From Ignavibacteriota bacterium (GTDB lineage Bacteria; Bacteroidota; Ignavibacteria; Ignavibacteriales; Melioribacteraceae): a stretch of 32,141 bases of DNA. The notes beneath the pieces were generated by a model, which saw nothing but the letters and a program-made list of their open reading frames with translations, was not told the origin of the DNA and did not search any database. The position numbers and the translations under genes are program-made. Positions within the stretch are counted from its first letter, which is position 1, and each line of letters begins with the position of its first letter. Below are positions 1-32,141 of the stretch, in pieces. The stretch spans positions 1 through 32,141 of the forward strand of contig PAAX01000017.1 of NCBI GenBank assembly GCA_002698995.1, written 5' to 3'.

Positions 1-95
1 AGTTTAACCCAAGGATAGATCAAATCTGGGCAGTCCATTTGCCATGGTCAGTTTCATCCGGCGAAGGTGGGTCAGTTTACCCGGCTTATCCAGTC
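1..95. mobile_element. Probable IS21-family element end (partial, left window edge)
   Basis: The motif GGTCAGTTT occurs twice as a direct repeat at 46-54 and 70-78, separated by CCGG-containing sequence. Repeated GGTCAGTTT-like blocks with CCGG are what I recall at the ends of IS21-family elements in Bacteroidota (recalled knowledge, not searched). No transposase is inside the window, so only the edge of an element would be present. The stop codon of the neighbouring minus-strand gene lies inside the second repeat copy. It could instead be ordinary intergenic repeat DNA. Confidence 0.38.
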
Positions 96-17720: not shown

Positions 17721-18521
17721 GCAATGATATATTTTATGAAAAACTGTAAACTTAAACCTCTTTTCACCCCAGATCAAACTTCTTCCTGACAAGAAGGTGG
17801 GGCTTTCATTGGAGAAAACCCGTACAGCAACTTGATGTAAATGACAATAAGGGATTCCCTTTTGCATTTCACAAATTAACATACGCTAATAGTTTGACCA
17901 TTTAGCACCCTTCACTATAGATCCCAGAAACCATGTCATAGTCCATTTCCATTCCAGTGACCTGTTATATTCGATTGCAACAAAGCGATAAAGGTAGAAC
18001 GGGTGAACATCACAAAAAAAAAATGATGGACCGACATAAAAAATAACTTCATATCCACTTTTGTTATTTGTTTTATAACCAATCTGAACTTTGCAAACCA
18101 CGGGGTATCCCACTGTACCAAATCCACAAATCCCAGCCTAAAACCCAACATTGTATATGAGGTCCTGATTTCTCTTCCTTATTATTTTCCAATTCCTGAT
18201 TAAATAAAGAAAGTATCATCCTAGTGCTAGGCAGAGTTGATTTCCTTTCTATGCACTATAATAGTAATGACAGATTAAAAAATTCTCAATATGTAACTAC
18301 AAACCAATATGTTACGTTATTTTTCAAAAAAAGGTAACCGAATAGGTAACTTTTAACCGTTTCAATATGCTTTCGCTATGCGAAATAATAAATTTTAGTA
18401 ACATTTTTGATTAATTGAGTTCAAACCACTGGTTAATTTAACTTTCATGTTATTGATTTTTAAATATGCAAGTAAGTGAACCATACTATCTTTTTTAATG
18501 AATGGATATGGATTTCAAATA
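17721..18521. other. 800-bp stretch without a convincing gene
   Basis: Two minus-strand frames overlap at 17886-18151. One (75 residues, ending KGAKWSNY) contains GYKTNNKSGYEVIFYVG and alternating hydrophobic-aromatic stretches that could be beta-barrel strands. The other covers the upstream part, and an A-rich run (A9 near 18016-18024) lies between them, so they may be pieces of one decayed outer-membrane protein. A further open minus-strand frame of about 59 codons runs from ~17881 into the IS4 end. None matches a family I recognise. The right part (18150-18521) is very AT-rich and seems empty. Confidence 0.35.
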
Positions 18522-18869
18522 CTATTTCCCAACTATTTTTTGTCTATGTAACAATCCCCAGTCCCGCATGGCATCAAGTAACTTTTCTAAAGTTGCCGCA
18601 TGTTCAGTAAGTTCATATTCCACCTTAGGGGGAAAAGTATCAAGAACGGTTCGTTTTACAAGCTGATTCATTTCCAGTTCTTTCAATTCTTTTGAAAGCA
18701 TCTTATCACTAATGCCTTCTACCTCTCGGGAAATTTGTTTAAATCGTTTTGTGCCTTCGTAAAGAGAAGTCAAAATAGGAAGTTTCCAGTTTCCACTCAA
18801 AACATCCATAGCATCCTTTACAGCTCGAATGCCGCTCGCATGACACTTAACAATATTCCGCTTTTCCAT
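18522..18869 (-). CDS. HxlR-family (DUF24) transcriptional regulator
   Basis: A 115-residue winged-helix regulator with DVLSGNWKLPIL, KQISREVEGISDKMLSKELKELEMNQL and VEYELTEHAATLEKLLDAMRDWG. Its only cysteine is C9 (MEKRNIVKC), the same position as in the HxlR protein at 4057, and close to the redox-sensing Cys of YodB-type repressors. It is divergent from three NAD(P)-dependent Rossmann proteins, and the shared intergenic region has a 13-bp-arm palindrome. This layout mirrors HxlR/QorR-type regulators that control quinone reductases. Thiol oxidation or alkylation as the inducing signal is inferred from the family. Confidence 0.9.
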   Translation of the reverse strand: MEKRNIVKCHASGIRAVKDAMDVLSGNWKLPILTSLYEGTKRFKQISREVEGISDKMLSKELKELEMNQLVKRTVLDTFPPKVEYELTEHAATLEKLLDAMRDWGLLHRQKIVGK

Positions 18870-18901
18870 AATTCAAATCTATACTAACCATGAAGATAGT
18901 G

Positions 18902-18934
18902 CTAACCAATAGTATAGTAATTACTATTGGTTAG
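18902..18934. promoter_or_regulatory. Palindromic operator between HxlR and the oxidoreductase genes
   Basis: Perfect 13-bp arms CTAACCAATAGTA (18902-18914) and TACTATTGGTTAG (18922-18934) with a 7-bp spacer. Extra half-site-like pieces lie on both sides: ACTAACC just upstream of the left arm and TACTATTG at 18945-18952. The site is 32 bp from the HxlR ATG and 53 bp from the oxidoreductase ATG. TAAATTTA at 18935-18942, directly next to the right arm, is one mismatch from TAnnTTTG and could be the promoter of the rightward genes. Confidence 0.75.
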
Positions 18935-18986
18935 TAAATTTACATACTATTGTAATACAAACAATACCTCATTAATTAGAAGGTGA

Positions 18987-19865
18987 ATGAGTAAAATTCT
19001 AATAACAGGTGCAACAGGTCTCCTTGGTGGTTTGGTCATTGATTTTCTATTGCAAAAAGGAATTGAAGCCAACGAGATTTCGGCATTGGCACGAAGTGAA
19101 GAAAAGGCAAAAACCTTAAAAAATGTAAATATCAATATAAAGGTGGGAGATTATAATGATTATGATTCACTGGTAGCAGCATTCAAAGGCACGGAAAAAT
19201 TACTATTTATTTCGGGAGAAGACCTAACTGCACGATTGTCACAGCACGAAAATGTAGTGAAAGCTTCAAAAGAATCAGGTGTAAAACACGTGGTCTATAC
19301 CAGTTTTCAGCGCAGAAACGAAACTGAAACTTCTCCATTGGGGTTCCTAGCCCAATCGCATTTATTAACGGAAAAATGGCTAAAAGAAAGTGGCCTTAAC
19401 CATACCATTCTTAAAAACAACCTGTACATGGACTACATTCCATCCTTTATTGGTGATAGAGTATTGGAAACCGGAACCATTTATCTGCCTGCTGGGAAGA
19501 GAAAGATAAGTGCAGGTTTGCGTACTGAATATGCTGAAGCCACAGCTAATATCCTTATCTCAGAAGGACACGAAAATAAAGTCTATGACTTTACCAATAT
19601 AGAAGCATATAGCTATGGAGACATGGCAAAATCAATTTCCGAAATCACGGGTAAAACCATTCAATACATTTCGCCAAGTATAAACGAATTTACACAAGCT
19701 CTTACGCATGCAGGTGTTCCAACGGAAAGCATCGGCGTACTATCCGGGTTTTCCGTAGCACAAGAACAAGGGGATTTGGATGTTACAAGTACCGATTTGA
19801 AAAATCTGTTGGGCAGAAATCCAACTACCCTGAAAACTTTTTTAAAAACGGTCTATTCATCTTAA
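18987..19865 (+). CDS. NmrA/QorB-like NAD(P)-binding oxidoreductase
   Basis: A 292-residue atypical SDR. The dinucleotide motif GATGLLGG lies right at the N-terminus (MSKILITGATGLLGG), and the family blocks SALARSEEKAKTL, GVKHVVYTSF and LNHTILKNNLYMDYIP match the QorB/NmrA-like group that reduces quinones with NADPH or senses NADP. The classical YxxxK is replaced by the group's own pattern. It is the first gene after the HxlR operator and probably the main target of that repressor. The next gene starts 29 bp after its stop. Confidence 0.88.
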   Translation: MSKILITGATGLLGGLVIDFLLQKGIEANEISALARSEEKAKTLKNVNINIKVGDYNDYDSLVAAFKGTEKLLFISGEDLTARLSQHENVVKASKESGVKHVVYTSFQRRNETETSPLGFLAQSHLLTEKWLKESGLNHTILKNNLYMDYIPSFIGDRVLETGTIYLPAGKRKISAGLRTEYAEATANILISEGHENKVYDFTNIEAYSYGDMAKSISEITGKTIQYISPSINEFTQALTHAGVPTESIGVLSGFSVAQEQGDLDVTSTDLKNLLGRNPTTLKTFLKTVYSS

Positions 19866-19894: not shown

Positions 19895-20524
19895 ATGAAC
19901 ATATCCATAATAGGGGCATCCGCTGGTATTGGCCTAGAAACAGTTAAAAGAGCATTGGCACGAAAACACACGGTAACCGCCCTTTCCCGTTCAAAAATTG
20001 AAGTAGGCAACGATGCGTTGACATCCGTAAAGGGCAGTGCTACCAACAAAACTGACCTGTTAAGGTCAGTCGAAAATGCAGATGCGGTGCTTGTAACCTT
20101 GGGAACGGGGACAAGTATGGCGGCAACGACCTTGTTTTCGGATTCTGCCAAGTTACTGATTGAAATTCAAACCGAAAACAAGCTTGATGCCCCTTTCATT
20201 TTTGTTACAGGTTTTGGTGCTGGGGACAGTATAGATTACACCTCAAAAGCTGTCAAAGAATTCATAGAAACCGCACTTAAAGATGTTTATGCAGATAAAA
20301 CAAAAATGGAAGGAATGATTACCAATTCAAACCTAAATTGGATAATTGTGCGACCAGGTGCATTACTGGATGGTCCGATAACGGAAAAATATCGAATTGA
20401 AACCCAATTGTACCAAGGTTTCGATATAGGTTCCATAAACAGGGCTGATGTAGCGGACTTTTTGGTTAGACAAGCAGAAAATCCCACGGAACTCAAAAAA
20501 TATGTAGCCATTTCCGCAAACTGA
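19895..20524 (+). CDS. NAD(P)H-binding Rossmann protein (SDR-a type)
   Basis: A 209-residue protein of the NAD(P)H-binding/NmrA-like family without the full SDR catalytic set. MNISIIGASAGIGLETVKRAL holds the GxxxGxG dinucleotide motif; ADAVLVTLGTG, APFIFVTGFGAGDS and LNWIIVRPGALLDGP are the conserved strands around the active pocket. It may act as a flavin/biliverdin-reductase-like or epimerase-like reductase; the substrate cannot be told. Second gene of the HxlR-controlled run, 63 bp before the third. Confidence 0.85.
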   Translation: MNISIIGASAGIGLETVKRALARKHTVTALSRSKIEVGNDALTSVKGSATNKTDLLRSVENADAVLVTLGTGTSMAATTLFSDSAKLLIEIQTENKLDAPFIFVTGFGAGDSIDYTSKAVKEFIETALKDVYADKTKMEGMITNSNLNWIIVRPGALLDGPITEKYRIETQLYQGFDIGSINRADVADFLVRQAENPTELKKYVAISAN

Positions 20525-20587
20525 CCACCAAATACAGCAATATTGAGAGGAGCATATAATTTAGAATAAATATAATAAAAAGAAAAT

Positions 20588-21325
20588 ATGAAAACAAAAG
20601 GAACTGCGGTAATCACAGGCGCAGCAAATGGATTGGGACAGGCTCATGCAGTCAGATTGGCAAAAGATGGATTTGACATAGCAGTGGCGGACATAGTTGA
20701 ACCTAATGAAACAAGAAAATTAGTCGAGGCTGAAGGAAAAAAATTCTTTTCTTCAATAGTTGATGTGACTTCTGAAGAAGCAACCAAAGATTTTGCGATA
20801 CAGGTTAAAGAGGAAATGGGTATTGTTACGGCATTAATAAATAATGCGGGAATTTATCCTCATGCGCTGTTCTCAGAGTTGGATTTCAAATTATGGAAAA
20901 AGATACTGGATATAAACTTAGATGGCACGTTTCTCATGAGTAAGGCCTTTGTCCCGCAAATGATTGAAAACAACTACGGCCGCATTGTAAATGTAGCAAG
21001 TACAACTTTTTTTATGAACGTAACCCATGGGTCTGCCTATCTAGCAAGTAAAGGTGGTATTATTGGTTTAAGCCGTGGACTGGCAAGTGAGGTTGGAGCA
21101 AATGGTATTACAGTCAATGTTATTGCCCCAGGACTTACAGATACAAAAATGAATAGAAAATTGGCGGGTGATGAAGCGTTTGAAAGTTTTCTACAACTGC
21201 AAGCCATTCCAAAAAACCTTCAACCTGAAGATATGTCCGCAACGGTTTCATTCCTTGTTTCAGAAGACTCTGCTATGATAACAGGGCAAACCATTATTGT
21301 AGATGGTGGGCAAATTAGAATATGA
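20588..21325 (+). CDS. Classical SDR-family oxidoreductase
   Basis: A 245-residue classical short-chain dehydrogenase with all motifs: G11-A-A-N-G-L-G17 for cofactor, NNAG at 85-88, N110 (ILDINLDG), S138 (NVASTT), Y151 and K155 (AYLASKGG), then PGLTDTKM. The C-terminal MITGQTIIVDGG is typical of FabG-like enzymes. An Asp after strand 2 (IAVADIVE) suggests NAD rather than NADP preference. Third gene of the run of reductases under the HxlR operator; the substrate is probably a ketone or alcohol. After it the strand has no gene for over 400 bp. Confidence 0.92.
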   Translation: MKTKGTAVITGAANGLGQAHAVRLAKDGFDIAVADIVEPNETRKLVEAEGKKFFSSIVDVTSEEATKDFAIQVKEEMGIVTALINNAGIYPHALFSELDFKLWKKILDINLDGTFLMSKAFVPQMIENNYGRIVNVASTTFFMNVTHGSAYLASKGGIIGLSRGLASEVGANGITVNVIAPGLTDTKMNRKLAGDEAFESFLQLQAIPKNLQPEDMSATVSFLVSEDSAMITGQTIIVDGGQIRI

Positions 21326-21760
21326 TGAAAGCTTATCGTACACATTGCGGTAGAACTTAAATATTTTGATGTGACTATGCTTTTTTATTTATGGTCAACA
21401 GGCTCATATCCCAATATCCGGTCCAATGTAGTAAGTCCATAGCACCAATTGAGACAATTTGGATTATTGGAAAAAGTTTATTGCCAAACAAAGATGTCCA
21501 TGAGAGCTATTGAAATAAAAGAGATAAGACCAAAACTGACATGTACATCTTCAATCAAAGGTGTGCTGAACTTCCAAATTTTCTAAGATTGGCCGTAACG
21601 GCAGCATTTATTATACAGAATTTTTATCAATTTGTCAAATTGCACATAAAGTATTTAAGTGGTCTTCAAAAATGAGATTGCTTCTACTATTGCTCGTAGT
21701 CCCTGCTCAGAGAATTAGAAGATTTACTTAAATTTATTGAACATAAATAAGACCAAACCA
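21326..21760. other. Intergenic stretch, no gene seen
   Basis: AT-rich on the left, somewhat more mixed toward 21550-21620. Short open frames exist on both strands but none is longer than about 45 codons or recognisable. TAAATTTA at about 21729-21736, one mismatch from TAnnTTTG, could serve as promoter for the lipoprotein gene at 21761. Confidence 0.35.
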
Positions 21761-22873
21761 ATGAAAAACAACCTTTCTATTTTGACTCTATCAGTATTGA
21801 CGTTCTGCTTACATTCTTGCGATAATGGTGGAGAAGGCGAAAACGGTAATAATGATGACAACGGATTTGACTCGGAGATCGTGGGAGAATCCGGTATTTT
21901 GGAAAATTTGAACACTACAAACCTTGATACATCCGGTTTTCCTTGGTTTTATCAGGACGATGTCAACCAAACAGGGTGTGGACTTTCCGAGTTGACCAAT
22001 GGAAAACTGAAAAGATGGGATATAGAAAATGAGGGTCTGATACCCGTAAAAATCGGTACTGTGGCTTTTGCAACTGAAGCCTTGGACGCCATCGAGGATA
22101 AATTGGGAATGACCTTGTTCGATAGGACAAGCATAGGCAACACTCCCAATGAAAATGTTTCTAAGGGACTGATCTTTAGTGATGGGACCGCTTCCGGGCC
22201 CAATCCATCCACTGATTGTGGACATGTTTCTTCGGGTGTTGGGACGTTCAGTTACCCGTATGAGGGAGAGGACTCGGAATACTCTTCTGAAAACATATAT
22301 TTTGAGTATGACAATGAGGGAAACATCGTAGGCCATGACAATCAGATGGTGGGACTAGCCTATGACGAGGCCGGTAATGCTGTGGGCAACATCTTGGAGG
22401 ACACACCCTTTATTTTCGACGACAATGGAGCCGTGATCGGTATGAAGGCAGATGAAGATGAGTTGATCAAAGATATCAACGGGAATGCCATTTGTACCAT
22501 ACTGTACAATAAGACCCTGTTTGATTCAAATGGAATGGCCATAGGTGCAAATGCATGGATCGGTGGGAGCCATGAAGATCGGGATGCCTACCTGATCAAA
22601 TACCGTGTGGTCGAAGATCCCTTCTATGATGCAACGGGCCGTATTAATACAGTTCTGTATGTTCATATTGGCTCTTCGGCCTGTGAAAGTGAAATCGATC
22701 TGGACTTGGTCGTGCACGAGACAGGGCATGCCCTTGGACTTGGAGCACATTTTGAGGGATTTGGCTATGGCCCTGCAGTGGATGGCAATTTCTGGAACGT
22801 CCTCAATACCCTTTACCACAATCCCATAGGAAGCGACGAAAGTTCCCTGAACATCCACCAAATCGAGTTTTAG
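21761..22873 (+). CDS. Lipoprotein with metzincin-like zinc-protease motif and internal repeats
   Basis: A 370-residue protein starting at ATG 21761. The lipoprotein signal ends FCLHSC, followed by a Gly/Asn/Asp/Glu-rich linker, so it is anchored and exposed in the envelope. Near the C-terminus VVHETGHALGLGAHFEGFG carries H319, E320, H323 and a third His at 330. This is HExxHxxGxxxH, one residue longer than the metzincin consensus HExxHxxGxxH. Where a Met-turn is expected it reads NVLNTLYHNP, with Leu in place of Met. Between residues ~183 and 262, [FY]D-x-x-G-x-x-[IV]-G units recur about five times (YDNEGNIVG, YDEAGNAVG, FDDNGAVIG, FDSNGMAIG and a weaker one). Codon use is visibly GC-richer than in neighbours. 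It is likely a surface zinc peptidase; target unknown. Confidence 0.78.
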   Translation: MKNNLSILTLSVLTFCLHSCDNGGEGENGNNDDNGFDSEIVGESGILENLNTTNLDTSGFPWFYQDDVNQTGCGLSELTNGKLKRWDIENEGLIPVKIGTVAFATEALDAIEDKLGMTLFDRTSIGNTPNENVSKGLIFSDGTASGPNPSTDCGHVSSGVGTFSYPYEGEDSEYSSENIYFEYDNEGNIVGHDNQMVGLAYDEAGNAVGNILEDTPFIFDDNGAVIGMKADEDELIKDINGNAICTILYNKTLFDSNGMAIGANAWIGGSHEDRDAYLIKYRVVEDPFYDATGRINTVLYVHIGSSACESEIDLDLVVHETGHALGLGAHFEGFGYGPAVDGNFWNVLNTLYHNPIGSDESSLNIHQIEF

Positions 22874-22907
22874 GCCCAAAGGAAAAAAATATGGAATCCC
22901 AACTGGT

Positions 22908-23516
22908 CTATTTGTCCCCCTGTTGGGTTTGTTTCAAGGTCCTGACGAACTGTTTCAGGTTCTCATGGGAATGGCTCAACCGGCCGTTCACCATAATTAC
23001 GGGGGTGCCCACTTGGTTGCCGATGACCCCTTGTTCCCTGAGCTTGTCCCACATATAGGCACCGTATTCGGGATGTTGGGTGAAATTGAGCAAGGTAAAG
23101 TCCACTTTGTTCTGCACCAGGTAATCCGTCGCATAGGCACATCTCGTACAACCATCCCTGCTGAAGACCACGATCCCCTTTTCAAACTTTTTGTAATCCT
23201 CTGGGTCGTAGAGCCTGTCCGGCATAAGGACCTGGTTGTAACCGTAGACATAGCCTATAGGTCCCCCGATTTTTTTGAGTTCGGCCACCAATAAGATCTT
23301 TTGCGGCTCCACGAGCTTTACAATGGGTTGCCCATCATGTTCCAATCCAGTGACCTCACTGAGTTCAAAGGTAATTTCCACAGGTTCATCCAAAGTATTC
23401 CTTGCCTTGAACACCATATGGTTAGCTGTTTCCTCTTCAAGGATTTCTACAGCAACCTGTGAGAAGGAAAAAAGACCTGATAAAAGAAAGACAAAATGGA
23501 CAAAAAATGTTTTCAT
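22908..23516 (-). CDS. Exported glutaredoxin-like thiol-disulphide protein
   Basis: A 202-residue protein with a Sec signal (~1-19, ending SGLFSFSQ), so it is periplasmic. After a beta-rich N-terminal region (~20-110) comes a glutaredoxin-fold domain: KGIVVFSRDGCTRC gives the active site C123-T-R-C126, FTLLNFTQHPE follows, and GTPVIMVNG supplies the cis-proline P172. The CxxC with FSRDGC resembles glutaredoxin/NrdH-like proteins, which are unusual outside the cytoplasm. It converges with the metalloprotease-like lipoprotein with only 34 bp between the stops, and both are GC-richer than the rest, suggesting that they arrived together. It may maintain or rearrange disulphides of an exported partner. 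Confidence 0.82.
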   Translation of the reverse strand: MKTFFVHFVFLLSGLFSFSQVAVEILEEETANHMVFKARNTLDEPVEITFELSEVTGLEHDGQPIVKLVEPQKILLVAELKKIGGPIGYVYGYNQVLMPDRLYDPEDYKKFEKGIVVFSRDGCTRCAYATDYLVQNKVDFTLLNFTQHPEYGAYMWDKLREQGVIGNQVGTPVIMVNGRLSHSHENLKQFVRTLKQTQQGDK

Positions 23517-23936
23517 GGAAAAATTAGATTTAATTTAGTAAAAAGAAAAAAGGTCTTGTTAAAGAAAATACCGTTGTAAAATACTAAAAGTACGAATCCA
23601 AAAATTACCACAACGTCAAGATATAAAAATAGTTGATTTTTATGCTGTCCGAAAACGGGGGAGCCTTCAAAAAGGGTAAGGCTACACTTTAACGATGGTG
23701 CAGTTATCAGACGTGTTCTAGGTTTTGTGAACCGCGGCATCGGTCGTCGATAAGGCCAAATAGTGGCCGTATATGTTGATTTTTAATGTGTTGCGAATAA
23801 AACTTGTTGCCAGATCACATAGAGCATCCGGATATGTCGAGTAGGTAAGCCGTAGCGGCGGTCTTTGCAAAATGTCCCTTATCCTACGGCCAAATGTAAT
23901 CCGGCATTGTTGACTACTGACTTTATTATTTTCATT
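23517..23936. other. Intergenic stretch holding an IS3-end-like remnant
   Basis: No gene is seen. GGGTAAGGCTACA at 23674-23686 matches exactly the outer 13 bases of the left end of the IS3 element at 25066 (read on its other strand), preceded by a matching A-run. Upstream a GCTGTCC at 23644-23650 recalls the inner part of the right end. This points to an old excision or insertion scar of a related element. The right part (23700-23930) is mixed in base content and unassigned. Confidence 0.45.
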
Positions 23937-24356
23937 TTAAATACCCAATGTTATTTGGTCTTTTACATTATGGTACCTTAAAGATGCTTTTATGCATCCC
24001 TTTAATTCTGTTTCAGGGATTTTTTGGTTGAGTTTGAAAACGATTGCCCGTTTTCCCTCAAATTGAAATTTGTGGCCGAAGACCAATCTGAAAGTGTCGA
24101 CTAATCTACTTGTACATTGAAAGTACATAGCATATTGGTCAGGTGTTCTTTCTTTCCAATCCATTCGCAAAGTACTGCCGTTTTTAGTTACAAAACTGGG
24201 TTCTCCCCATTTTAAGGTTTCTTCCAAAACGGCTATATCCTGCATTTCTTCTGCCGTTTCAATTACCAATTCCCGCAAATATTGCATCTTATCCCTAACA
24301 AAATCAGGATAATTCTCAAATTTCTCAATTACTTTCGGATTGGTTTTTAGTTCCAT
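23937..24356 (-). CDS. DUF1801-domain protein
   Basis: A 139-residue cytoplasmic protein of the DUF1801 (YdhG-like) family. The conserved start of the fold is PDFVRDKMQYLRELVIETAEE, followed by ETLKWGEPSFVTKNGSTLRMDWKE, the most conserved block, and YAMYFQCTSRLVDTF. The fold is small alpha/beta with no known catalytic residues and the function is unproven. It lies 3 bp downstream of the GyrI-like gene, so they are co-translated. DUF1801, GyrI-like and WYL-regulator genes commonly occur side by side in Bacteroidota. Confidence 0.85.
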   Translation of the reverse strand: MELKTNPKVIEKFENYPDFVRDKMQYLRELVIETAEEMQDIAVLEETLKWGEPSFVTKNGSTLRMDWKERTPDQYAMYFQCTSRLVDTFRLVFGHKFQFEGKRAIVFKLNQKIPETELKGCIKASLRYHNVKDQITLGI

Positions 24357-24359
24357 TAT

Positions 24360-24821
24360 TTATTCTTTAACCGCGACAAATATATCCACTTCCGCATTTT
24401 CTCGGTTTTGCGATTTCTCTCCGTAAACCTCAAAATCTGCCGAGTAAGTTCTGTTTATCCCTGATTTCCAAATTCCTTCCCAAGTTTTATAAACAATTCC
24501 TTCATTCAAACTACCTTTAGAAACAAATTTCAAGTAATTTCCGCCTTCAAATTCTTGTCCAACCATTCCTTCGGGTATTTTTCGCAATGAACTTACCTTG
24601 CAACCTAAAATAGTTTCGTATGGTTGTGTGAAGTCTCCCTGATAATTTGTGTAAATCGAGAAAATTGAATTCTCAACTTTATTGGGGATTTTTTCAGCGA
24701 TTTTTTCAGTTAAAAATTTTGCCCATAATTCTCCAATGTCTTTTGCTGATTGACCGTTTTCATTTGTTGTCCTTGCCTTAATTCCAATAACGTTAAAAGG
24801 CTCAATTTTTACCGTTTGCAT
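24360..24821 (-). CDS. GyrI-like/AraC effector-binding-domain protein
   Basis: A 153-residue stand-alone effector-binding domain from MQTVKIEPF at 24821; the upstream extension to 24848 is unlikely. Features are FNVIGIKARTTNENGQSAKDIGELWAKF, IFSIYTNYQGDFTQPYETILGCKV and the late Trp/Tyr-rich WEGIWKSGINRTYSADFEVYG, which ends in the acidic pair typical of the ligand pocket. Family members bind hydrophobic cations or other small compounds, or hydrolyse cyclopropanoid electrophiles. Together with the truncated WYL regulator just upstream (24862) and DUF1801 downstream it formed a three-gene unit, now cut by the IS3 element. Confidence 0.85.
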   Translation of the reverse strand: MQTVKIEPFNVIGIKARTTNENGQSAKDIGELWAKFLTEKIAEKIPNKVENSIFSIYTNYQGDFTQPYETILGCKVSSLRKIPEGMVGQEFEGGNYLKFVSKGSLNEGIVYKTWEGIWKSGINRTYSADFEVYGEKSQNRENAEVDIFVAVKE

Positions 24822-24861
24822 AGTTTTAAATTTTATTGTTCGATGCAAAGTTAGATTGACC

Positions 24862-25065
24862 TTATGTCAAAGGTGTGTCAGGGGTTGAAAGACAATTTTT
24901 TCTGCATTCCTCAAAATATTCTTCCAAGGTTATTTTATGTGGATTGAATTTTTTATCGGTTACTACTAGGTTTTGAATGCGGTCGAGCCTAAACGCCCGA
25001 AAGGCATTTCTCATTTGGCAATAAGCTATTAAAATCCAATTATCTTGCGTGGTGTATAGTGCAAA
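24862..25065 (-). pseudogene. WYL-domain (YafY-type) regulator, 5' part removed by IS3 insertion
   Basis: Reading the minus strand from the IS3 edge gives FALYTTQDNWILIAYCQMR, NAFRAFRLDRIQNLVVTDKKF and a C-terminal helix ending CRKNCLSTPDTPLT, then TAA at 24862-24864. LYTTQDNWILIAYC...FRAFRLDRI is the WYL-domain signature of YafY-type transcriptional regulators, whose Arg-rich LDRI block binds ligand or nucleic acid. Only the last ~67 codons remain. The frame is interrupted exactly at the IS3 inverted repeat (25066), and the N-terminal helix-turn-helix part is not found on the other side of the element, so flanking DNA was also lost. Confidence 0.8.
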
Positions 25066-25081
25066 TGTAGCCTTACCCCTT

Positions 25082-25966
25082 TTAGGACATCGCTAAATTC
25101 ATAAAATTATCATTAATGTTGTCTGTTTCGGGGAAGAATTCTTCCCCGAAACGGTTCTTGTATTCCCTGGGCGGCATATCCCCGATGGATGAATGGGGAT
25201 GCCTTGTATTGTAATCCTCCATCCATTTTTGGGTCAGTGTCCTTACTTGGTGCAGGTCGTTGAACCAATAGGCATCGAGCACATCCTCCCTGTAAAACCT
25301 GTTCAGTCGTTCCATATATCCGTTCTGCATGGGCTTGCCGGGCTGGATGAACTGCAGCTCCACCCGTCTGCTCTTGCACCATTGCGATAGTGCCTTGGAT
25401 ATGAACTCAGGGCCGTTGTCGCAGCGTATGGTCTTTGGCAGGCCTATTTCTTCCCCCAATTGTGATAAGGTCTCCACCACCCTTATAGCTGGATAGTTAA
25501 GCCCCACGTCCATGGCCAGGGCCTCCCGGTTGCAGTCGTCCATCACATTGAACACCCTTATCTTCCTCCCATCTGACAGTACATCGGCCATAAAGTCCAT
25601 GCTCCAGACCTCGTTGAGCTCCATCGGGGCCTCCAATGGGTTCTTGGTCCTTGCGGGAAGCCTCTTCTTGTGCTTCCTCCTGAGTTTTAGGTTCATGGAC
25701 CTGTAGACCCTCAGCACCCGTTTTCTGTTCCAGTTGTGGCCTTCGCGACGCAAACGCTTGTAATATACCTCGAATCCCCTTGTCGGCAGCTCTTCGGCCA
25801 GCTTGGAAAGGGCGTCGATCACCTCGGTGTCGTCCCTTCTGCTATGGTAGTACCACATTGACCGCGCAAGGTCCAGCACCCCGCAGGAACGCGATATGCA
25901 TACCGAATACGTCTCCTGGAGATATTTGGCGCGCTGCTTCTTGTCGGAAGGCCCTAGAACTTTTTT
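25082..25966 (-). CDS. IS3-family transposase OrfB (integrase domain)
   Basis: The rve-type DDE integrase half of the OrfAB fusion. In the -1 frame it begins VLGPSDKKQRAKYL at 25960 without a good start of its own. Catalytic residues lie in NEVWSMDFMADVL (Asp), IRCDNGPEFIS (Asp) and MQNGYMERLNRFYRE (Glu), and the HTH_21-like region GFEVYYKRLRREGHNWNRKRVLRVYRSMNL precedes them. The tail HPHSSIGDMPPREYKNRFGE is typical. All motifs are intact, so the element may be active. Confidence 0.92.
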   Translation of the reverse strand, partial: KKVLGPSDKKQRAKYLQETYSVCISRSCGVLDLARSMWYYHSRRDDTEVIDALSKLAEELPTRGFEVYYKRLRREGHNWNRKRVLRVYRSMNLKLRRKHKKRLPARTKNPLEAPMELNEVWSMDFMADVLSDGRKIRVFNVMDDCNREALAMDVGLNYPAIRVVETLSQLGEEIGLPKTIRCDNGPEFISKALSQWCKSRRVELQFIQPGKPMQNGYMERLNRFYREDVLDAYWFNDLHQVRTLTQKWMEDYNTRHPHSSIGDMPPREYKNRFGEEFFPETDNINDNFMNLAMS

Positions 25967-26220
25967 GACAGTACGTCCTTGAGCATACGGATGTCCAAAC
26001 TGGCATCGGCGTACATCTGCATGAGCCTGCGGTTCTCCTCCTCAAGCTCCTTCAAGCGCTTCATATGGGCAACTTCCATGCCCCCGTACTTCTTGCGCCA
26101 ATAGTAGAAAGTGCTCTTGTCGATCCCCAACTCCCGGGATATCTCCCCGACGCTCCGACCTTGTTCGTTCTCTTTCAGTGCCTTGATGATCTGGCTCTCG
26201 GTAAACTTGCTTTTTTTCAT
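25954..26220 (-). CDS. IS3-family transposase OrfA (HTH_8-type)
   Basis: An 88-residue protein with the Tnp_1 helix-turn-helix (MKKSKFTESQIIKALKENEQ, VGEISRELGIDKSTFYYWRKK) and a leucine-zipper-like coiled coil (LKELEEENRRLMQMYADASL). The phrase MYADxSLDxRxLKD is characteristic of the IS407 group. It ends at a TAG just after the slippery A-run and normally serves both as regulator and as the N-terminal part of OrfAB. Confidence 0.9.
   Translation of the reverse strand: MKKSKFTESQIIKALKENEQGRSVGEISRELGIDKSTFYYWRKKYGGMEVAHMKRLKELEEENRRLMQMYADASLDIRMLKDVLSKKF
25960..25966 (-). other. Programmed -1 frameshift signal (A_AAA_AAG)
   Basis: At the end of orfA the minus strand reads TCA AAA AAG TTC TAG. 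The heptamer A_AAA_AAG is in the correct phase for -1 slippage, after which reading continues GTT CTA GGG into orfB. This is the standard way in which IS3 elements make the OrfAB transposase. Confidence 0.8.
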
Positions 26221-26270
26221 GTGACAGTTAAAATTTAAAGTTAGAAAATTCTAATTTTAAGCTGTCCTAT

Positions 26271-26338
26271 TTTTAGGGAAGGCTACAATGTCCCGATAAA
26301 CCGTTTTAGGGAAGGCTACATTTTTAGGGAAGGCTACA
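26271..26338. repeat. Three tandem copies of the IS3 right end
   Basis: TTTTAGGGAAGGCTACA occurs at 26271-26287 (the true element end), 26304-26320 and 26322-26338, all in the same orientation, with spacings of 33 and 18 bp. The copies suggest repeated insertion beside, or imprecise loss of, elements with the same end, or end-to-end targeting. They stand immediately between the IS3 element and the peptide-biosynthesis-like operon. Confidence 0.8.
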
Positions 26339-26381
26339 CTAGAATCAGGCTAAAGATTCGAAGTGTGCGAAAGCATCCGAA

Positions 26382-27209
26382 TCAAAAAGGTTGGCGTCGG
26401 TTTTCTGATATAAATATTTTGCTTTTCTTCTTAATAAGCTCTAATATTCCCAAGTGGTCTTCGGCTTCTATGAGATCAACAAAATTGGAATCAGCGAGAC
26501 AATAAACGAAAAATTGTTCTTTTTTTGAAAAGGGGATTTTTAATTCCTGCAATCGAAGGGAATCGTTGAACAAATACTCAAACTCCTCTAATTTAATAGT
26601 TTGTTCATTTTGTTCTACCAATTTTTTTAGCTTTTTGGTTCTCCCCGATGCTCTATTTAGAATTTTATGCAGATTGATGCTAATTCCCAATCCAAAGTAG
26701 TGTCCATACAAATTAACAAACTTTCCATTATCAGCTTCAAACAGTTTTCGTTCATATTGGGAAAGGACCCTCACATCGGCATTGGGAAGCCCCAAAGAAG
26801 AAGCATCAACATTTTTTGATAACCTTAATGCTGAAATGTCCTTGTCCAAGATTCCAGTCAGATTATATGGTCTTACAACCACTTCTTCCAATTCGTTGAT
26901 AAGCTCCTCTAAATCTATCCTCAAATGGTTGGAGGATAAAATATCCTCTGTTACAACCAGATATTTATGCTTTAGTTGAACAGATGAAAATAATAGTGTA
27001 TCCTTTGATATGACACCTATAGAAAAACGTCCATACGAATCGGTTATGGTCCCTCTCTTGCTAGTAAGGTTTAGAATGTGTACGCCTTCAACCTCAGTGT
27101 TAAGGCTTTTGACCGTGCCATTTAACATAAGTCGAGTCTCTTGACCAAATCCGAAAGAGATTGTGAAGAGTAAAGCAAAAAAAATTATATGTTTACTATA
27201 GGTTTTCAT
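26382..27209 (-). CDS. Exported carboxypeptidase-regulatory-like protein (operon gene 5)
   Basis: A 275-residue protein with a Sec signal (~1-22, ending FGFGQ). Residues ~25-115 form a CarboxypepD_reg-like beta-sandwich: LNGTVKSLNTEVEGVHILNL, TSKRGTITDSYGRFSIGVISKDTLLFSS and the strand INELEEVVVRPYNLTG that normally leads into a TonB plug; no barrel follows. The remainder is charged helical, with LKKLKKLVEQNEQTIKLEEFEYLF. Family members in Bacteroidota are common envelope accessories of unknown function. It starts inside the end of the M50 gene (ATGA overlap at 27206-27209), so translation is coupled. Its own stop lies 44 bp from the IS3-end repeats. It may take part in release or export of the operon's product. 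Confidence 0.8.
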   Translation of the reverse strand: MKTYSKHIIFFALLFTISFGFGQETRLMLNGTVKSLNTEVEGVHILNLTSKRGTITDSYGRFSIGVISKDTLLFSSVQLKHKYLVVTEDILSSNHLRIDLEELINELEEVVVRPYNLTGILDKDISALRLSKNVDASSLGLPNADVRVLSQYERKLFEADNGKFVNLYGHYFGLGISINLHKILNRASGRTKKLKKLVEQNEQTIKLEEFEYLFNDSLRLQELKIPFSKKEQFFVYCLADSNFVDLIEAEDHLGILELIKKKSKIFISENRRQPF

Positions 27210-28394
27210 TTTTTTTGTCGCTCCTTTATATATGAAAATAGAAAACTGAATACAGTAACATAAAAAATGATGGGTAATATAAACCTATACAAATCCGAGA
27301 ATTTTGGTCTTGAGCGTCCTGAAAATACCTCTGATAAATAAGTAAAAACATTTTCCGGGAATTTTATTATACCATTCGAATCATAAAGCAATATTCCGCC
27401 TAGTACAATTAATATAAATATTTGACTCGTCAGTGCATAAAATACCAAAAAAAAAATCTTTGCCTCTCAAGTGACGAATAGATGTTTCATTTTGAAAAAC
27501 CTTTTTTAAAATTTTATTTGATGCCATTCTTAGGTTTGGAACCCCAATCATATCCGATAATACCCAATATCCATCATAACGAAGGAAAGGGTTCAAATTA
27601 GCCAGCAATGACAATGATATGGCCGAGCTGTATACTAAATAATTGTTTGTCCGAGTTATAAAAAAAAATAAAACCAATATGGAGGCAATCAGTAATTCGA
27701 TATAGATTCCAGATAGATTCACGATGATTCTTTTATTCGGTTTTAATTTCCATATATCTGAAACATCGGCAAACATCACTGGTGAAAGTAGGTAAAAACC
27801 GAATCCAATATCCCCAAATTTAGCACCAAATCGATGACAGGCGGCAGCATGTCCCATTTCATGGAAAAACAACACTGTACCTGCAAATAAAATATATAAT
27901 GCCCATTGACCAAAGTTGAGATTTTCAAGACCTATTTTGATGGAGTTAAAATGAGCGATTAATGTTCCAAAAACGACCAAAGAAAAAATAGCCAGTAAAA
28001 AGTAAAATAATTTATCTGAGAACAATGGGGACATAAGCCTCACTATTGGCAATATGGTCTTATTCTTTAGCAATGTGAAACTTAGCTTTAAATAAGAGGG
28101 CTTTCCTATTTTCTTAATTTCAACATTTGCTGATTCTATAATCCCGTAAGTGGCCAAGGTACCAAATAATAAATTGTCAAGCAGATTGGCAGACACACCT
28201 TTGTGTATACCATAAAGTTCATTTATCTTTTGAAGATTCCGTTTACCGTCCACTAATTTAATTATATCCAAAGTATCCTTATTGACATTTATGCGATGTC
28301 CATATTCAGTTTGTTTTATGATAAACTCGTTCTTATCAAAAGGAAGGATTTCAATGTTTGGTGATAAAACAGGTATTTTGCTTTTAACGTCCAT
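27206..28394 (-). CDS. PqqD-like domain fused to M50 (site-2) protease, one-base frameshift
   Basis: The N-terminal ~90 residues are PqqD-like (FIIKQTEYGHRINVNKDTLDIIKLVDGKRNL), the fold that binds RiPP leader peptides. A multi-spanning M50 protease follows with H178-E-M-G-H182 (FFHEMGHAAACHRFG) and the second metal motif N268-P-F-L-R-Y-D274-G-Y-W. PqqD-M50 fusions of this kind occur in RiPP clusters such as those with YydH-like proteases. The frame breaks after LRGKDFFF at a T10 run (A10 at 27447-27456 on the plus strand); one T fewer would continue LVFYALTSQIF to the stop at 27206, giving 395 residues whose end overlaps the next gene by ATGA. The 1189-nt length is one over a multiple of three. 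The start overlaps the preceding gene by 11 bp. Confidence 0.85.
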
Positions 28395-30339
28395 TTAGGC
28401 TCGACTTATAGTTTTCCAATGCAACAAAAGAGACAACAGAAGTGAACACCCCATTAAAGTCTTGCAAGACAATGTTTGTTCCTTTATTATCCTTTTTCCA
28501 TCCATAGATTTGTTTTTCAGGATCTAATATATCCGGTGAGGGTATTCTCATAGAATAGTTTCCCCTCCATGAGCCATTTTCTAATTGGGCATTTAACAAA
28601 ATTTCCGACAAAAGTTTATCAGGCAGATTATCATAATTAAAAATATGCTTGGACTTGATTCTGCTCAAAAGGCACAAGGCAACATAAAATATATTATGAG
28701 CCCCATCCTTGACAGGATTGGATTTTTTATTTAATTCATTGCAACAAAGGTTGAATATTTTTTTATTCATATTGATACAACATGCTAACACCAAGAAAGA
28801 AATTGCATAATCCCTGCTTGTCCACCAGTATGGTACTTCATCTAAATCTTCGATTTTATCAATTAGAAATGACTCCAATTTTCGTTTTTTATCATTATTA
28901 ATGCCTAGCTGACAAAAAACTAAATATGCAACAGCGCTAACACAGAAATGTGAATTTAACCAACCTTCAACGTTATTAACTTCCTTGGTGTTTAGTGAAG
29001 CCAATAGCTCTTTTTCATTTCTATAGGTACAAAAACCTCCATCTTCATTTTGAAAACTGAACCATTCTTCAAGTTCGTCTTCACAGAAATCAGTTCCCAG
29101 ACTATGTAAGGCAAGTATTGTGAAGGACGTAGAGTCTGCGTCTGGTATCCAGTTTGAATTATATCCCCATAAATTCTTTTCTTCATAGCGATTGGAAAGT
29201 AAAAACTCCTTTGATTTACTCAAATCAAAATGGGACTTGTACCAGTGAGATAAAAAATAGCATACAAAGGAAGTAGTCCAAACATTACTGTTCCCTGCAT
29301 CATTAAAATAATCTGTCCAACTACCATCTTCTTCTTGAATTTCAAATAAATAATGTAAGACTTCGGAATTTTCTATTTTGCCCGAACCATTACTCGATCT
29401 ATCAATATGTTTTGATTTCAAGTATTTATTAAATCTTATATATCCATTTATATTCAGGTTGTTTATTGTGATTGTATTTTGCATCCGCTGCAATTCATCC
29501 TTCCATCTGGGCGCTTTATAATCTCTCACAAATTCAAAGGCCCTTATAATATGTTCATAAGCCTTTAAGTATAGTTCTTCGGCCACACCTTCCAGATAAA
29601 GAAGCTTTTTTTGATCACCTAAACTATATGATTCAATGTCATCGACTCTCTTTTCTAAGTGGTTTTTTGAAATATTGAACTGCTGATTAATATAGTCTTC
29701 CTCATAATCTGAAACATCATCCAATATTTGAAAAGCAACATAAAAATCCTTGTGCGATTTAAGAACGTTTTGGTATTCATTTCGATAATGTTTCCCTGTA
29801 AGTACAAATAGAGCGTCTATCGCTATTTTTCCAAAAGAAGACTTGTAATCGCATAAAACCTCATATTCCGCAAACGAAGATATATTGTGGCTTTGCTTGT
29901 CCAATTTATAAGCCTTAACATATTCAAATTTTCTTTTGCCCCATATCTCCCAAAATTCAGAATCAGTTTCAAAGAAAGTCGATAATATCTTGACAGTTTC
30001 CTCTTGGCAGATATTAATTGTTAGAAAGACGTTGAAATTCGATGTTTCTTTTTTGTTGTCAAAAATATCGTCCATCAAAATAATGGACCGATAGTAAAGA
30101 AATCCAGCGATTGACAACATATCCAACACCTCTTTATCAGAAAAATCGAAAGCTGAATTGAAAAGATATGGGTAATATAAATAGTAATCAGGGTTGTTCC
30201 GGATAAACTTTTGGTAGCAAATATTATCGATTACTTCCTTGGGATAGCCAAGCCCATTCAAGTATATCTGTACATTTTCAATCGCTTCTTTGAAAAGATT
30301 GTCATCTCTGTAATCAAAAAAATATTTTGTACTTATCAA
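28384..30339 (-). CDS. Fusion of class I terpene/prenyl-transferase-like and terpenoid-cyclase-like domains
   Basis: A 651-residue protein. Residues ~1-300 are all-helical with two Asp-rich motifs, D90-D-I-F-D94 (SIILMDDIFDNKKE) and D207-D-V-S-D211 (FQILDDVSDYEED), matching DDxxD motifs of class I isoprenyl diphosphate synthases and cyclases; the GGKR and RR motifs of chain-elongating enzymes are missing. Residues ~325-645 form an alpha-toroid of the squalene-cyclase/protein-prenyltransferase type, with QW-like blocks (QEEDGSW, QNEDGGF, QLENGSW) and PDADSTSFTILALHSLG near 399-415. That block resembles the class II acid motif DxDD, with D400 and D402 kept and the last Asp a Ser. The domain order differs from plant bifunctional cyclases (class II first). 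The start is TTG at 30339; no in-frame ATG is upstream. It follows gene 2 by 31 bp. Confidence 0.8.
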   Translation of the reverse strand: MISTKYFFDYRDDNLFKEAIENVQIYLNGLGYPKEVIDNICYQKFIRNNPDYYLYYPYLFNSAFDFSDKEVLDMLSIAGFLYYRSIILMDDIFDNKKETSNFNVFLTINICQEETVKILSTFFETDSEFWEIWGKRKFEYVKAYKLDKQSHNISSFAEYEVLCDYKSSFGKIAIDALFVLTGKHYRNEYQNVLKSHKDFYVAFQILDDVSDYEEDYINQQFNISKNHLEKRVDDIESYSLGDQKKLLYLEGVAEELYLKAYEHIIRAFEFVRDYKAPRWKDELQRMQNTITINNLNINGYIRFNKYLKSKHIDRSSNGSGKIENSEVLHYLFEIQEEDGSWTDYFNDAGNSNVWTTSFVCYFLSHWYKSHFDLSKSKEFLLSNRYEEKNLWGYNSNWIPDADSTSFTILALHSLGTDFCEDELEEWFSFQNEDGGFCTYRNEKELLASLNTKEVNNVEGWLNSHFCVSAVAYLVFCQLGINNDKKRKLESFLIDKIEDLDEVPYWWTSRDYAISFLVLACCINMNKKIFNLCCNELNKKSNPVKDGAHNIFYVALCLLSRIKSKHIFNYDNLPDKLLSEILLNAQLENGSWRGNYSMRIPSPDILDPEKQIYGWKKDNKGTNIVLQDFNGVFTSVVSFVALENYKSSLNGR

Positions 30340-30370
30340 CCAATCACTGTTTATATAATTTTCTTAAAAA

Positions 30371-31543
30371 TCAATTACGTAAATCCCTTATGTCCTTTAA
30401 TATCTTTCTTTCCTCTTCACTAAAGAACATTGTATTGTTCTCATTCCAGCCTTCCAACTTTGGTATTGCAATAACTTGTTTGTTAAATCCTTCTTCAACA
30501 TCGTAGTTAGTAGACAACTTTTTTGGTGATATGTGTTCTACAAGCGTCAATATATATTTGGCGTTTGAACTGTACCTGTAGCTTTCTTGGCCTAAAATGC
30601 CGTTCCTAACGTTGTCCACTTCAACAAAAGAAAGGAAGTATTTATCATGGACTTTACGATATTTTATCGTTGCTTTTGCCTCTATTAATATAAATACAGG
30701 CTTTTTTGATTTTTTCCCCTCAAGGGATGATGCCACAATCGCTTTAATTTTTTCTGGATCTTTTTGCGTTTCTATCTGAACAATTGCCATGGTTTCTCTT
30801 TCAATATAAATTTTACCCATATTGTTGTTATAGATATTGTCGTTTGATGGTGAGAACCCGATAATGAGAATAGGGTTTTCCCTAGATTCGATTTCTCCAA
30901 CATATTTGAAAGTATAGTCTGAAAGATTGTCAATATCGAACATTCTGCTTTTTGAACGTACCATATCGGCGTTCCGAACAATCGTGGCTATGCCCCCAAC
31001 GGCATCTAAATTTAGCTTTGTGTGGTTTTCTGTTCGACGACCCTGAATGATTTCTGCTTGATAGCCTTGGGGATTATTGTCTCCTTCATTATAAGTCATA
31101 AAGGAAACTTCGGTTAACATAGCGCCTTTTCCATCTTCCTGTACACTTTCACGATAAAAGCCATAAAGATTAAATGGATTCGATATTATATTCTGTGGGA
31201 TGCTTTTAATAGCTTTTATTATAATATCCTTTGCGGTTTCTCCCCTAACAAAGACCTCCTCCAAACTGATAATATAAGGACTCAACCAAATTGTATCCTT
31301 TTTACTTAAGTTATTTTTTTTGATATTTTTTTTTCGATAAGCTAAATGAGAGAATTCTATATTATTGGATTCGACAAAATAATCAATTGAAAATTTCCCA
31401 ACTTCGTTTGTGGTTGTTCCCTGACCTTTTTCATCAGTGATGTGGGCAAACTGTATTGGCTCCCTGGTCATCGAATCCAAAACTATTTGAGAATGTAGAT
31501 GAATACTCCCAAGAAAAAAGACAATAAAGTATATCTTTTTCAT
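30371..31543 (-). CDS. Exported carboxypeptidase-regulatory-like protein (operon gene 2)
   Basis: A 390-residue protein with a Sec signal (MKKIYFIVFFLGSIHLHSQ). The CarboxypepD_reg-like sandwich (~19-100) contains REPIQFAHITDEKGQGTTTNEVGKF and ends SLEEVFVRGETAKDII, the strand normally before a TonB plug. Instead of a barrel, ~290 residues of beta-rich sequence follow (FYRESVQEDGKGAMLTEVSF, ITIERETMAIVQ-like strands, YFLSFVEVDNVRNG). This architecture is known in Bacteroidota as a stand-alone carboxypeptidase-like protein of unknown function. It is the first gene after the precursor and its terminator, and pairs with the smaller, related exported protein at the other end of the operon. A role at the envelope in export, processing or immunity is inferred. 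Confidence 0.8.
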   Translation of the reverse strand: MKKIYFIVFFLGSIHLHSQIVLDSMTREPIQFAHITDEKGQGTTTNEVGKFSIDYFVESNNIEFSHLAYRKKNIKKNNLSKKDTIWLSPYIISLEEVFVRGETAKDIIIKAIKSIPQNIISNPFNLYGFYRESVQEDGKGAMLTEVSFMTYNEGDNNPQGYQAEIIQGRRTENHTKLNLDAVGGIATIVRNADMVRSKSRMFDIDNLSDYTFKYVGEIESRENPILIIGFSPSNDNIYNNNMGKIYIERETMAIVQIETQKDPEKIKAIVASSLEGKKSKKPVFILIEAKATIKYRKVHDKYFLSFVEVDNVRNGILGQESYRYSSNAKYILTLVEHISPKKLSTNYDVEEGFNKQVIAIPKLEGWNENNTMFFSEEERKILKDIRDLRN

Positions 31544-31657
31544 AAATCAGGCATCTTTTGGTAAATATTAAGACTAATTCGTTTAGAACAATATACATCT
31601 ATTTGAATTATTTAGCTGAATTGCAACGAATTAATAAAGAAATTATATAGGATATTA

Positions 31658-31697
31658 GGGCAAAAGAAATCCGGATTCATTTATCATGAATCCGGAT
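31658..31697 (-). terminator. Terminator/attenuator after the precursor gene
   Basis: A perfect 12-bp-arm hairpin, ATCCGGATTCAT (31669-31680) and ATGAATCCGGAT (31686-31697) with a 5-base loop, followed on the minus strand by TTTCTTTTG. It stands 18 bp after the stop of the 47-residue gene and 125 bp before the next start. A strong hairpin here would make the peptide transcript far more abundant than the enzyme transcript, as is usual in RiPP operons. Confidence 0.8.
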
Positions 31698-31715
31698 GAC
31701 AAAAGTTTGATAGGT

Positions 31716-31859
31716 TTAGAAAGTGTAACTAGCTCCAATATAGCCTCTACAATCACCACTTGTACAAGCATAATTACTCTCGTTTTTCCACTTTGCCATC
31801 TCTAATCTTTGCTCTAGTTCTTCGACTTTGAAGTTTTTTAAATCTTCACTTTTGTTCAT
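31716..31859 (-). CDS. 47-residue putative RiPP precursor peptide (operon gene 1)
   Basis: ATG at 31859, TAA at 31716-31718; the frame is only 48 codons. The N-terminal ~27 residues are charged and helical (MNKSEDLKNFKVEELEQRL, EMAKWK), like leader peptides recognised by PqqD-type domains. The C-terminal tail NYACTSGDCRGYIGASYTF is different in character: uncharged apart from D36 and R38, rich in Gly, Ser, Thr and Tyr, with cysteines C32 and C37. There is no double-glycine signal or Sec signal. The gene has about 148 bp of upstream non-coding DNA, a terminator after it, and PqqD/M50 and terpenoid-enzyme genes downstream. Precursor identity and the leader/core border (probably near residues 26-30) are inferred. 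Confidence 0.72.
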   Translation of the reverse strand: MNKSEDLKNFKVEELEQRLEMAKWKNESNYACTSGDCRGYIGASYTF

Positions 31860-32007
31860 AATTATAGTTTTAGGTTAATGCAATAAAATGCCTTTCTATT
31901 TGTAGTATTAAACTTATGAATATTTTTTTAAATTGACACTATCTGGGTTCAGATTATTCAAAATTTTTCTTAAAATGAAATCCACTACAATTATTACAAT
32001 ACTGTTT

Positions 32008-32045
32008 TGTAGCCTTCCTTAAAAATGTAGGATATCGTTAAATTC
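32008..32045. mobile_element. Second IS3-like element end
   Basis: TGTAGCCTTCC at 32008 followed further in by GGATATCGTTAAATTCA matches the left end of the element at 25066 (TGTAGCCTTACC ... GGACATCGCTAAATTCA). The DNA to the right differs from that element, so this is a related but different copy continuing beyond the window. Confidence 0.65.
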
Positions 32046-32141
32046 AGTGACCTCCTTTGTATTTCTAATATTAAATGATTTAGCGATAATAGTTTCGATA
32101 TCCTCCTTCAAAAAGTTTGAACTCTGTCCCGTTGAGGTCAC
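32019..32141 (-). CDS. C-terminal end of an unidentified gene (partial, right edge)
   Basis: An open minus-strand frame of 40 codons enters from the window edge and stops with TAA at 32019-32021. It reads TGQSSNFLKEDIETIIAK and ends EVTEFNDILHF. The stop lies 11 bp inside the IS3-like end, as a transposase C-terminus would, but I do not recognise transposase sequence in the visible part. It may be the tail of a related element's gene or an unrelated gene fused to an element end. Confidence 0.45.
   Translation of the reverse strand: MTSTGQSSNFLKEDIETIIAKSFNIRNTKEVTEFNDILHF

Follow-up and report, generated by a model that had tools for sequence, protein, structure and literature searches.

A predicted precursor peptide gene beside a putative prenyltransferase-terpene cyclase fusion gene, and its relatives with changing tails

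Described systems and the fusion enzyme

The ChrPC prenyltransferase-cyclase RiPP was reportedly described by Hubrich et al. in 2024 (Chem 10:3224), and the kind of system considered here is in that sense already known. A 2026 review (PMC13290415) names two prenyltransferase-cyclase fusions: ChrPC, for which it describes a P-C layout, an internal Trp acceptor and C10-C20 donors followed by cyclisation, and NctPC, whose cyclase domain it likens to MstE. The same review describes the characterised trans-IDS-like enzymes as acting on Trp and ties a Gln before the SARM to Trp recognition. In its account ComQ-ComX and PalQ-PalX likewise pair a trans-IDS-like prenyltransferase with the Trp of a ribosomal peptide; unlike the enzyme studied here, both lack a cyclase domain. 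PalX is described as having an NHLP leader and a kinase gene, PalP (PMC10853753), neither of which was seen in the cluster reported below.

The window analysed here is a stretch of 32,141 nucleotides (contig PAAX01000017.1, positions 1 to 32,141), and its cluster features all lie on the minus strand. The gene at 28384-30339, with a TTG start, encodes a 651-aa protein that is, as predicted from motifs, profiles and a structure model, a trans-isoprenyl-synthase-like prenyltransferase joined to an MstE-like class II terpene cyclase. In the model (mean pLDDT 74.8; pTM 0.50, so that the arrangement of the domains is uncertain), residues 7-291 (P domain, 29467-30321) take a polyprenyl-synthase fold, polyprenyl synthases aligning at Z about 23 (4lob, Z 23.3 over 273 residues). 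Residues 320-648 (C domain, 28396-29382) take a class II cyclase fold for which MstE and 6ij1 are tied as the closest structures (Z 28.9 and 28.2), the match to MstE 6sbc covering 310 residues at 3.0 A. The P domain carries DxxxD (D90, D94), with a DDxxD-like FARM (DDIFD), and QxxDDxxDxxxD (Q204-D215, with Q204, D207, D208, D211 and D215 all present), and the C domain carries DADST (D400, D402), whose DxD is presumably the acid motif. MstE, the merosterolic acid cyclase (PDB 6sbb-6sbg), resembles the C domain in fold and DxD motif; it differs in that it is stand-alone and was solved with geranylgeranyl dihydroxybenzoate and no peptide, the geranylgeranyl chain sitting on an aromatic ring.

We traced the kinship of the window enzyme from its relatives, from a family profile run against PDB sequences and from the structure model (Foldseek and structural alignment). 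The enzyme had no Pfam match at E 0.01, and its sole NCBIfam match was a squalene cyclase family at E 3e-4, below the cut-off. Its relatives match squalene-hopene cyclase C-terminal domains, and the family profile matched the myxobacterial cyclases 8paj (E 5e-44) and 8pak (E 1e-42), MstE (E 2e-31) and, weakly, GGPP synthase (E 0.014). DxxxD, QxxDDxxDxxxD and the DxD with Ser/Thr/Asp are kept in the aligned fusions wherever the columns are present, with the exception of L048, in which Cys replaces the Gln before the SARM. A ComQ-only reading was given up because the window enzyme has a cyclase domain; with the cyclase fused, and with neither a kinase nor a response regulator turning up in the scan of 10 proteins, the layout is not that of a stand-alone ComQ with ComP/ComA. 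The traits by which we recognise a ChrPC-type system were found: a P domain and a class II cyclase in one protein, a FARM, a SARM with Gln upstream and a DxD, and a Trp-bearing precursor (Trp24, below) beside the enzyme gene. The cluster therefore resembles ChrPC in its fused trans-IDS-like P and terpene cyclase C domains and its putative Trp acceptor, a likeness drawn by analogy through the description of ChrPC in the review.

The 651-aa enzyme or the family profile matched 12 of 391 genomes sampled from the class, 11 of 395 from the phylum and 4 of 79 from the family, and 4 of 92, 3 of 98 and 14 of 246 in three further samples; these samples overlap, and some matches are below full length. 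A plasmid search with the window enzyme gave no match. Among the 28 fused-enzyme loci considered below are near copies, and at four of the 28 (L020, L044, L082 and L084) the gene is split or damaged; L017 was dropped because its contig starts inside the gene. A profile of a stand-alone form of the prenyltransferase matched 14 of 173 genomes of one genus. The window cluster itself occurs at 99.7-99.9% DNA identity in Allomuricauda abyssi, aurea and sediminis, at 99.5% over its first 2.8 kb only in okinawensis, and at 81% in Flagellimonas oceanensis.

The precursor gene and the hairpin behind it

A preliminary description of this DNA had proposed an overlooked short precursor-like gene followed by an attenuator hairpin. 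The ORF at 31716-31859 is real and encodes 47 residues plus a stop, the product being MNKSEDLKNFKVEELEQRLEMAKWKNESNYACTSGDCRGYIGASYTF. Since 20 frames of at least 20 codons overlap the stretch 31000-32141 in the ORF listing, a short frame by itself is no proof, and the proof comes from comparison. Between the window and F. oceanensis (L018), 15 of the 48 codons, stop counted, have changed, 14 of them synonymously; third positions take 13 of the 15 base changes, and the sole residue change is Ala22 to Gly. Furthermore, a leave-out profile built from five distant precursors, with the window and L018 excluded, ranked this ORF first among the 457 window ORFs (E 9.8e-9; runner-up E 1.5). The synonymous changes and the rank in the distant-relative profile, together with homologues in related clusters, make the ORF almost certainly a precursor peptide gene. 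Zero Pfam families matched the window precursor, and zero NCBIfam families matched six precursors, the window member being searched at E up to 1 or 10; an NHLP- or Nif11-type leader, as in PalQ RiPPs, was accordingly not found in it.

We aligned related clusters, as the preliminary description had proposed, and found a conserved leader and a variable tail, as it had expected. Its division into leader and core halves is present, but its boundary lay some residues too late: the variable part begins from or next to Trp24, before the NYACTSGDC... tail. The predicted leader, whose boundary is set at the end of conservation, comprises residues 1-23 (31791-31859), NFKVEELEQRLE, and resembles FKVEELEQRLE in relatives. 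Alignment and tail comparison place the predicted core at residues 24-47 (31719-31790), WKNESNYACTSGDCRGYIGASYTF. Trp24 (codon 31788-31790), the single Trp of the window precursor, is invariant in the alignment of relatives and is the predicted prenyl acceptor. We put at about 0.82 the probability that this gene encodes the precursor of a RiPP that would receive a cyclised isoprenoid, with Trp24 prenylated and the chain cyclised.

Short genes that share this leader and change in their tails were found at 25 of the 28 fused loci, or at 17 distinct loci without near copies; in the stretches examined at the other three (L075, L080 and L084) there was no precursor. The profile that picked up the precursors of L044-L048 and L074-L083 had been built without them, and some precursors beside stand-alone enzymes gave E 0.05-1e-5 with the first profile and became clear only with a profile including their kind. 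At the cyclase-only loci L024 and L049 and the short-prenyltransferase loci L028-L031 the precursor profile had no match below E 1; our precursor counts exclude these loci as well as G594 (L042) and L089. Six tandem precursors, every tail different, lie beside one enzyme at L046:6319-7364, and six others, five of them nearly identical, at L118:6615-7872. A separate observation concerns L030:7909-9528, where a 310-aa isoprenyl-synthase-like protein is accompanied, in a PalQ-like layout, by two precursors that NCBIfam scores as NHLP-like, below cut-off, and that have a Trp close to the C terminus.

The claimed hairpin lies at 31669-31697, 18 nt past the precursor stop. When the RNA of 31655-31715 was folded, it formed a perfect 12-bp single stem with a 5-nt loop at -18.4 kcal/mol (z -5.5), and 0 of 200 shuffles were equally stable. 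The stem was as first described, but the tail, UUUCUUUU, is no pure U run; the stable stem is followed, as in an intrinsic terminator or attenuator, by a U tract, here interrupted by one C. In F. oceanensis the stem is kept, with one G-U pair, and the loop is rewritten. Terminator-like hairpins (stem of at least 8 bp, at least 5 T in the next nine bases, within 100 nt of the precursor) lie behind 9 of 21 family precursors, the window counted, where dinucleotide shuffles predict 0.2; no such hairpin was seen behind the other 12. Each locus contributes a single precursor to this set; five come from loci with stand-alone enzymes and none from L114-L123, and the window and L018 in it are non-independent. 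Because the hairpins recur, attenuation or termination after the precursor is favoured as a trait that is recurrent rather than universal, and for the candidate attenuator of the window we hold attenuation to be somewhat the better bet. It would lower transcription into the downstream genes and so leave the peptide in excess over the enzyme.

The protease, its neighbours and the state of the window copy

The enzyme genes had been said to follow the hairpin. The next gene (30371-31543), which starts 172 nt downstream of the precursor, instead encodes a CarboxypepD_reg_2 protein (Pfam PF13715, E 8e-9) with an N terminus that looks like a signal peptide by eye, no obvious enzyme; the prenyltransferase-cyclase and protease genes come after it. 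A second CarboxypepD_reg_2 protein (26382-27209) matches the N-terminal part of BamP alone, below the cut-off.

Compared with L015 and L016, a T run near 27456 is one T longer and splits the protease gene over two frames; the 5' part of the gene occupies 27381-28394 and the remainder, in another frame, 27206-27448. The gene is intact in L015, L016, L018 and L019, and no M50 gene was found in the stretches examined at L044, L075 and L084. A model of the L015 orthologue (pLDDT 80.4) aligned over residues 1-90 with the RRE domains of TigE (Z 10.5), TbiB1 (Z 10.0) and PqqD (Z 9.1), and further on with the site-2 proteases RseP (Z 10.2), SpoIVFB (Z 9.9) and 3b4r (Z 9.4), middling values for a helical region; Foldseek returned nothing below E 0.001, with RRE chains leading at E 0.005. 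The PqqD-like domain proposed in the preliminary description is thus present by fold in the intact orthologue, with a weak sequence match (Pfam PqqD, 2 of 11 protease members, best E 0.16). With the threshold relaxed to E 10, Pfam M50 matched all 11 members, the best value of 9.5e-6 still falling short of the cut-off, and HExxH and an N-P...D-G-Y-W motif are invariant among the 11 aligned. NCBIfam daptide (daptide_HExxH) and epipeptide protease families matched at E 2e-40 and 5e-21, both below their curated cut-offs. We accordingly model the protein as an N-terminal, PqqD-like RRE followed by an M50 body.

Such peptidases are known from other peptides: MpaP of the daptides is described as an RRE-dependent intramembrane peptidase for leader removal (PMC10036551), and TmcP of TMcin as a site-2-type leader peptidase too (PMC13252029). 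The window cluster resembles the daptides (MpaP) and the epipeptides (YydH/LiaK) in its RRE-fused M50 intramembrane peptidase, recognised by fold and by the profile match below cut-off, and differs in the leader and C terminus of its precursor. Among the 10 window proteins scanned there was no daptide aminotransferase, methyltransferase or oxidative decarboxylase, and the C-terminal residue of the precursor is Phe, not Thr. The radical SAM epimerase of epipeptides (Yyd) was not found either, as judged from a radical SAM profile of the relatives only. That profile had no match at E 0.001 in the window or in L015-L020, and the radical SAM protein of L023 had none in the window's own assembly, where an empty answer is weak. 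Seven of 17 distinct fusion clusters have a radical SAM enzyme; the gene lies ahead of the precursor in L022, L023, L026, L027, L045 and L047, L123 has a more distant one and L021 a stump. Other clusters would thus modify their cores further, and the window product, where the profile found no match, may be a simpler, terpene-only form.

With its protease gene frameshifted, the window copy may not mature its peptide. We think it rather unlikely that this copy is merely what is left of such a cluster, decaying or without function. The frameshift relative to L015 and L016, the cut enzyme gene of okinawensis (L020) and the IS3 genes directly downstream of the window cluster speak for decay, but sequencing or assembly errors can account for a single added T in such a run, neither the precursor nor the fusion enzyme is damaged, and the protease is complete in L016, which is 99.9% identical. 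A relic in the window would in any case fit with the reading preferred for the family, a RiPP precursor for a cyclised isoprenoid.

Several observations concern the surroundings of the cluster. Its left end, which is also the contig end (32126-32141), has the same 16 bases, GTGACCTCAACGGGAC, as the junction at position 6199 of L015, L016, L019 and L020, four Allomuricauda species with differing flanks; in 5 of 6 pairs compared, identity is 99.4-100% over the cluster's first 2.8 kb, and the flank either has no match or stands at 73.7%. The cluster looks like a mobile cassette. In okinawensis (L020:8942-8965) the fusion gene breaks off near residue 321 and the remainder of the cluster is absent, the sequence joined there being that of L019 from 15336. 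The window contig has a GC content of 37.5%, against 30.6-32.1% in four stretches sampled from other contigs of its assembly, and over positions 17727-19000 and 20386-32141 it matches Allomuricauda aurea at 99.9-100% identity; a search of the window's assembly for a 6-kb A. aurea flank came back empty, which is weak evidence. The contig looks foreign to that assembly, whether by contamination, by mis-binning or by very recent transfer. A stretch of roughly 92 bases at the start of the window (1-92) recurs at 75-100% identity several times per genome in three Allomuricauda genomes, often near contig starts, and is probably an insertion-sequence end.

The acceptor residue and the proposed maturation

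We compared 17 distinct fused loci (26 precursors) with 14 loci encoding a stand-alone P domain (L025, L085-L088 and L114-L122; 24 precursors), after dropping the near copies L015, L016, L019, L020, L078, L079, L081 and L082. All 26 precursors adjoining fused enzymes have a Trp in the tail, and 22 have exactly one. In 24 of the 26 the first Trp or Tyr within 8 residues of the last Glu of the leader is Trp; L048 and L076 have none beside the leader and their only Trp near the C terminus. The stand-alone prenyltransferases keep DxxxD and QxxDDxxDxxxD intact (14 of 14) and have no cyclase domain, and their precursors have Tyr at the usual Trp position in 24 of 24 cases and Trp there in 0 of 24. 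A first formulation, that stand-alone enzymes go with wholly Trp-free precursors, was too strong, as 6 of the 24 carry Trp elsewhere; the rule for the leader-adjacent residue held. Four of these six end in GGGW (L119:4243-4422, L120:7759-7938, L121:8744-8929 and L122:7754-7933), and a C-terminal GW/GGW motif is described as favourable for PalQ (PMC13290415), which suggests, by analogy, a second prenylation site. Since 13 of the 14 stand-alone loci come from one genus, with L025 from another class, few independent events lie behind the Tyr pattern. In a P-domain tree with five stand-alone rows, which are non-independent, these enzymes fall in two places with weak support.

The split by enzyme type supports Trp24 as the acceptor; for the stand-alone enzymes it suggests Tyr. 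We think it improbable that the Trp instead belongs to the leader, as a recognition or cleavage signal, with the isoprenoid placed elsewhere, for example on Cys32, Cys37 or a core Tyr. The distance from Trp to leader is near-fixed, many cores are Cys-rich, and L089 retains Trp precursors beside a cyclase fragment with no P-domain match, but L048 and L076 carry their Trp far from the leader, precursors with the same leader beside stand-alone enzymes have Tyr instead in 24 of 24, and the review describes Trp as the residue used by characterised trans-IDS-like enzymes (PMC13290415). L089 is probably a broken cluster, resembling a broken form of that at L123. A 400-aa ORF that looks like a transposase lies inside the L089 protease region. 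It is very improbable that the 651-aa enzyme makes a free terpene and that the peptide is a small protein unrelated to it or an upstream ORF with a regulatory role: known class II cyclases mostly take free substrates, but residue-level conservation goes with a hypervariable tail, the six tandem copies of L046 differ in their tails, most clusters hold an RRE-M50 protease, and the aromatic residue swaps with the enzyme type.

For the preferred reading, a RiPP whose Trp24 receives the isoprenoid, we infer reactions, their order, a cleavage site, attenuation and any product activity from the genes, their conservation and association, the modelled folds, the motifs and the hairpin. Recruitment of the peptide by its leader would go through the protease's RRE domain, and possibly also through the prenyltransferase-cyclase directly. 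The P domain would prenylate Trp24, with a chain of C10-C20 if ChrPC is a guide, and the MstE-like C domain would protonate and then cyclise the Trp24-bound chain. The RRE-fused site-2-type metalloprotease would cut the leader off at the membrane, near Trp24.

Extending this to both enzyme kinds, we tentatively propose, as a possibility somewhat short of even odds, that one leader family and one RRE-M50 protease serve them both, with the aromatic residue 3-7 positions after the last Glu as acceptor: Trp for the fused enzymes, giving a polycyclic terpenyl-Trp, and Tyr for the stand-alone ones. In the open-access literature searched we found no description of such a Trp-to-Tyr acceptor switch.

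As a class, peptides that carry cyclised terpenes are very new, and few of their enzymes have been characterised. The present analysis adds a precursor family missed by NCBIfam (six members) and by Pfam (the window member), a motif with which more can be found, and about thirty distinct enzyme-precursor loci, including the six-core array of L046 beside its one enzyme. If the proposal holds, the stand-alone group would be the first trans-IDS-like enzymes to prenylate Tyr, or the Cys that is often beside Tyr, and the Trp-to-Tyr exchange would make the acceptor choice of these prenyltransferases a direct swap question.
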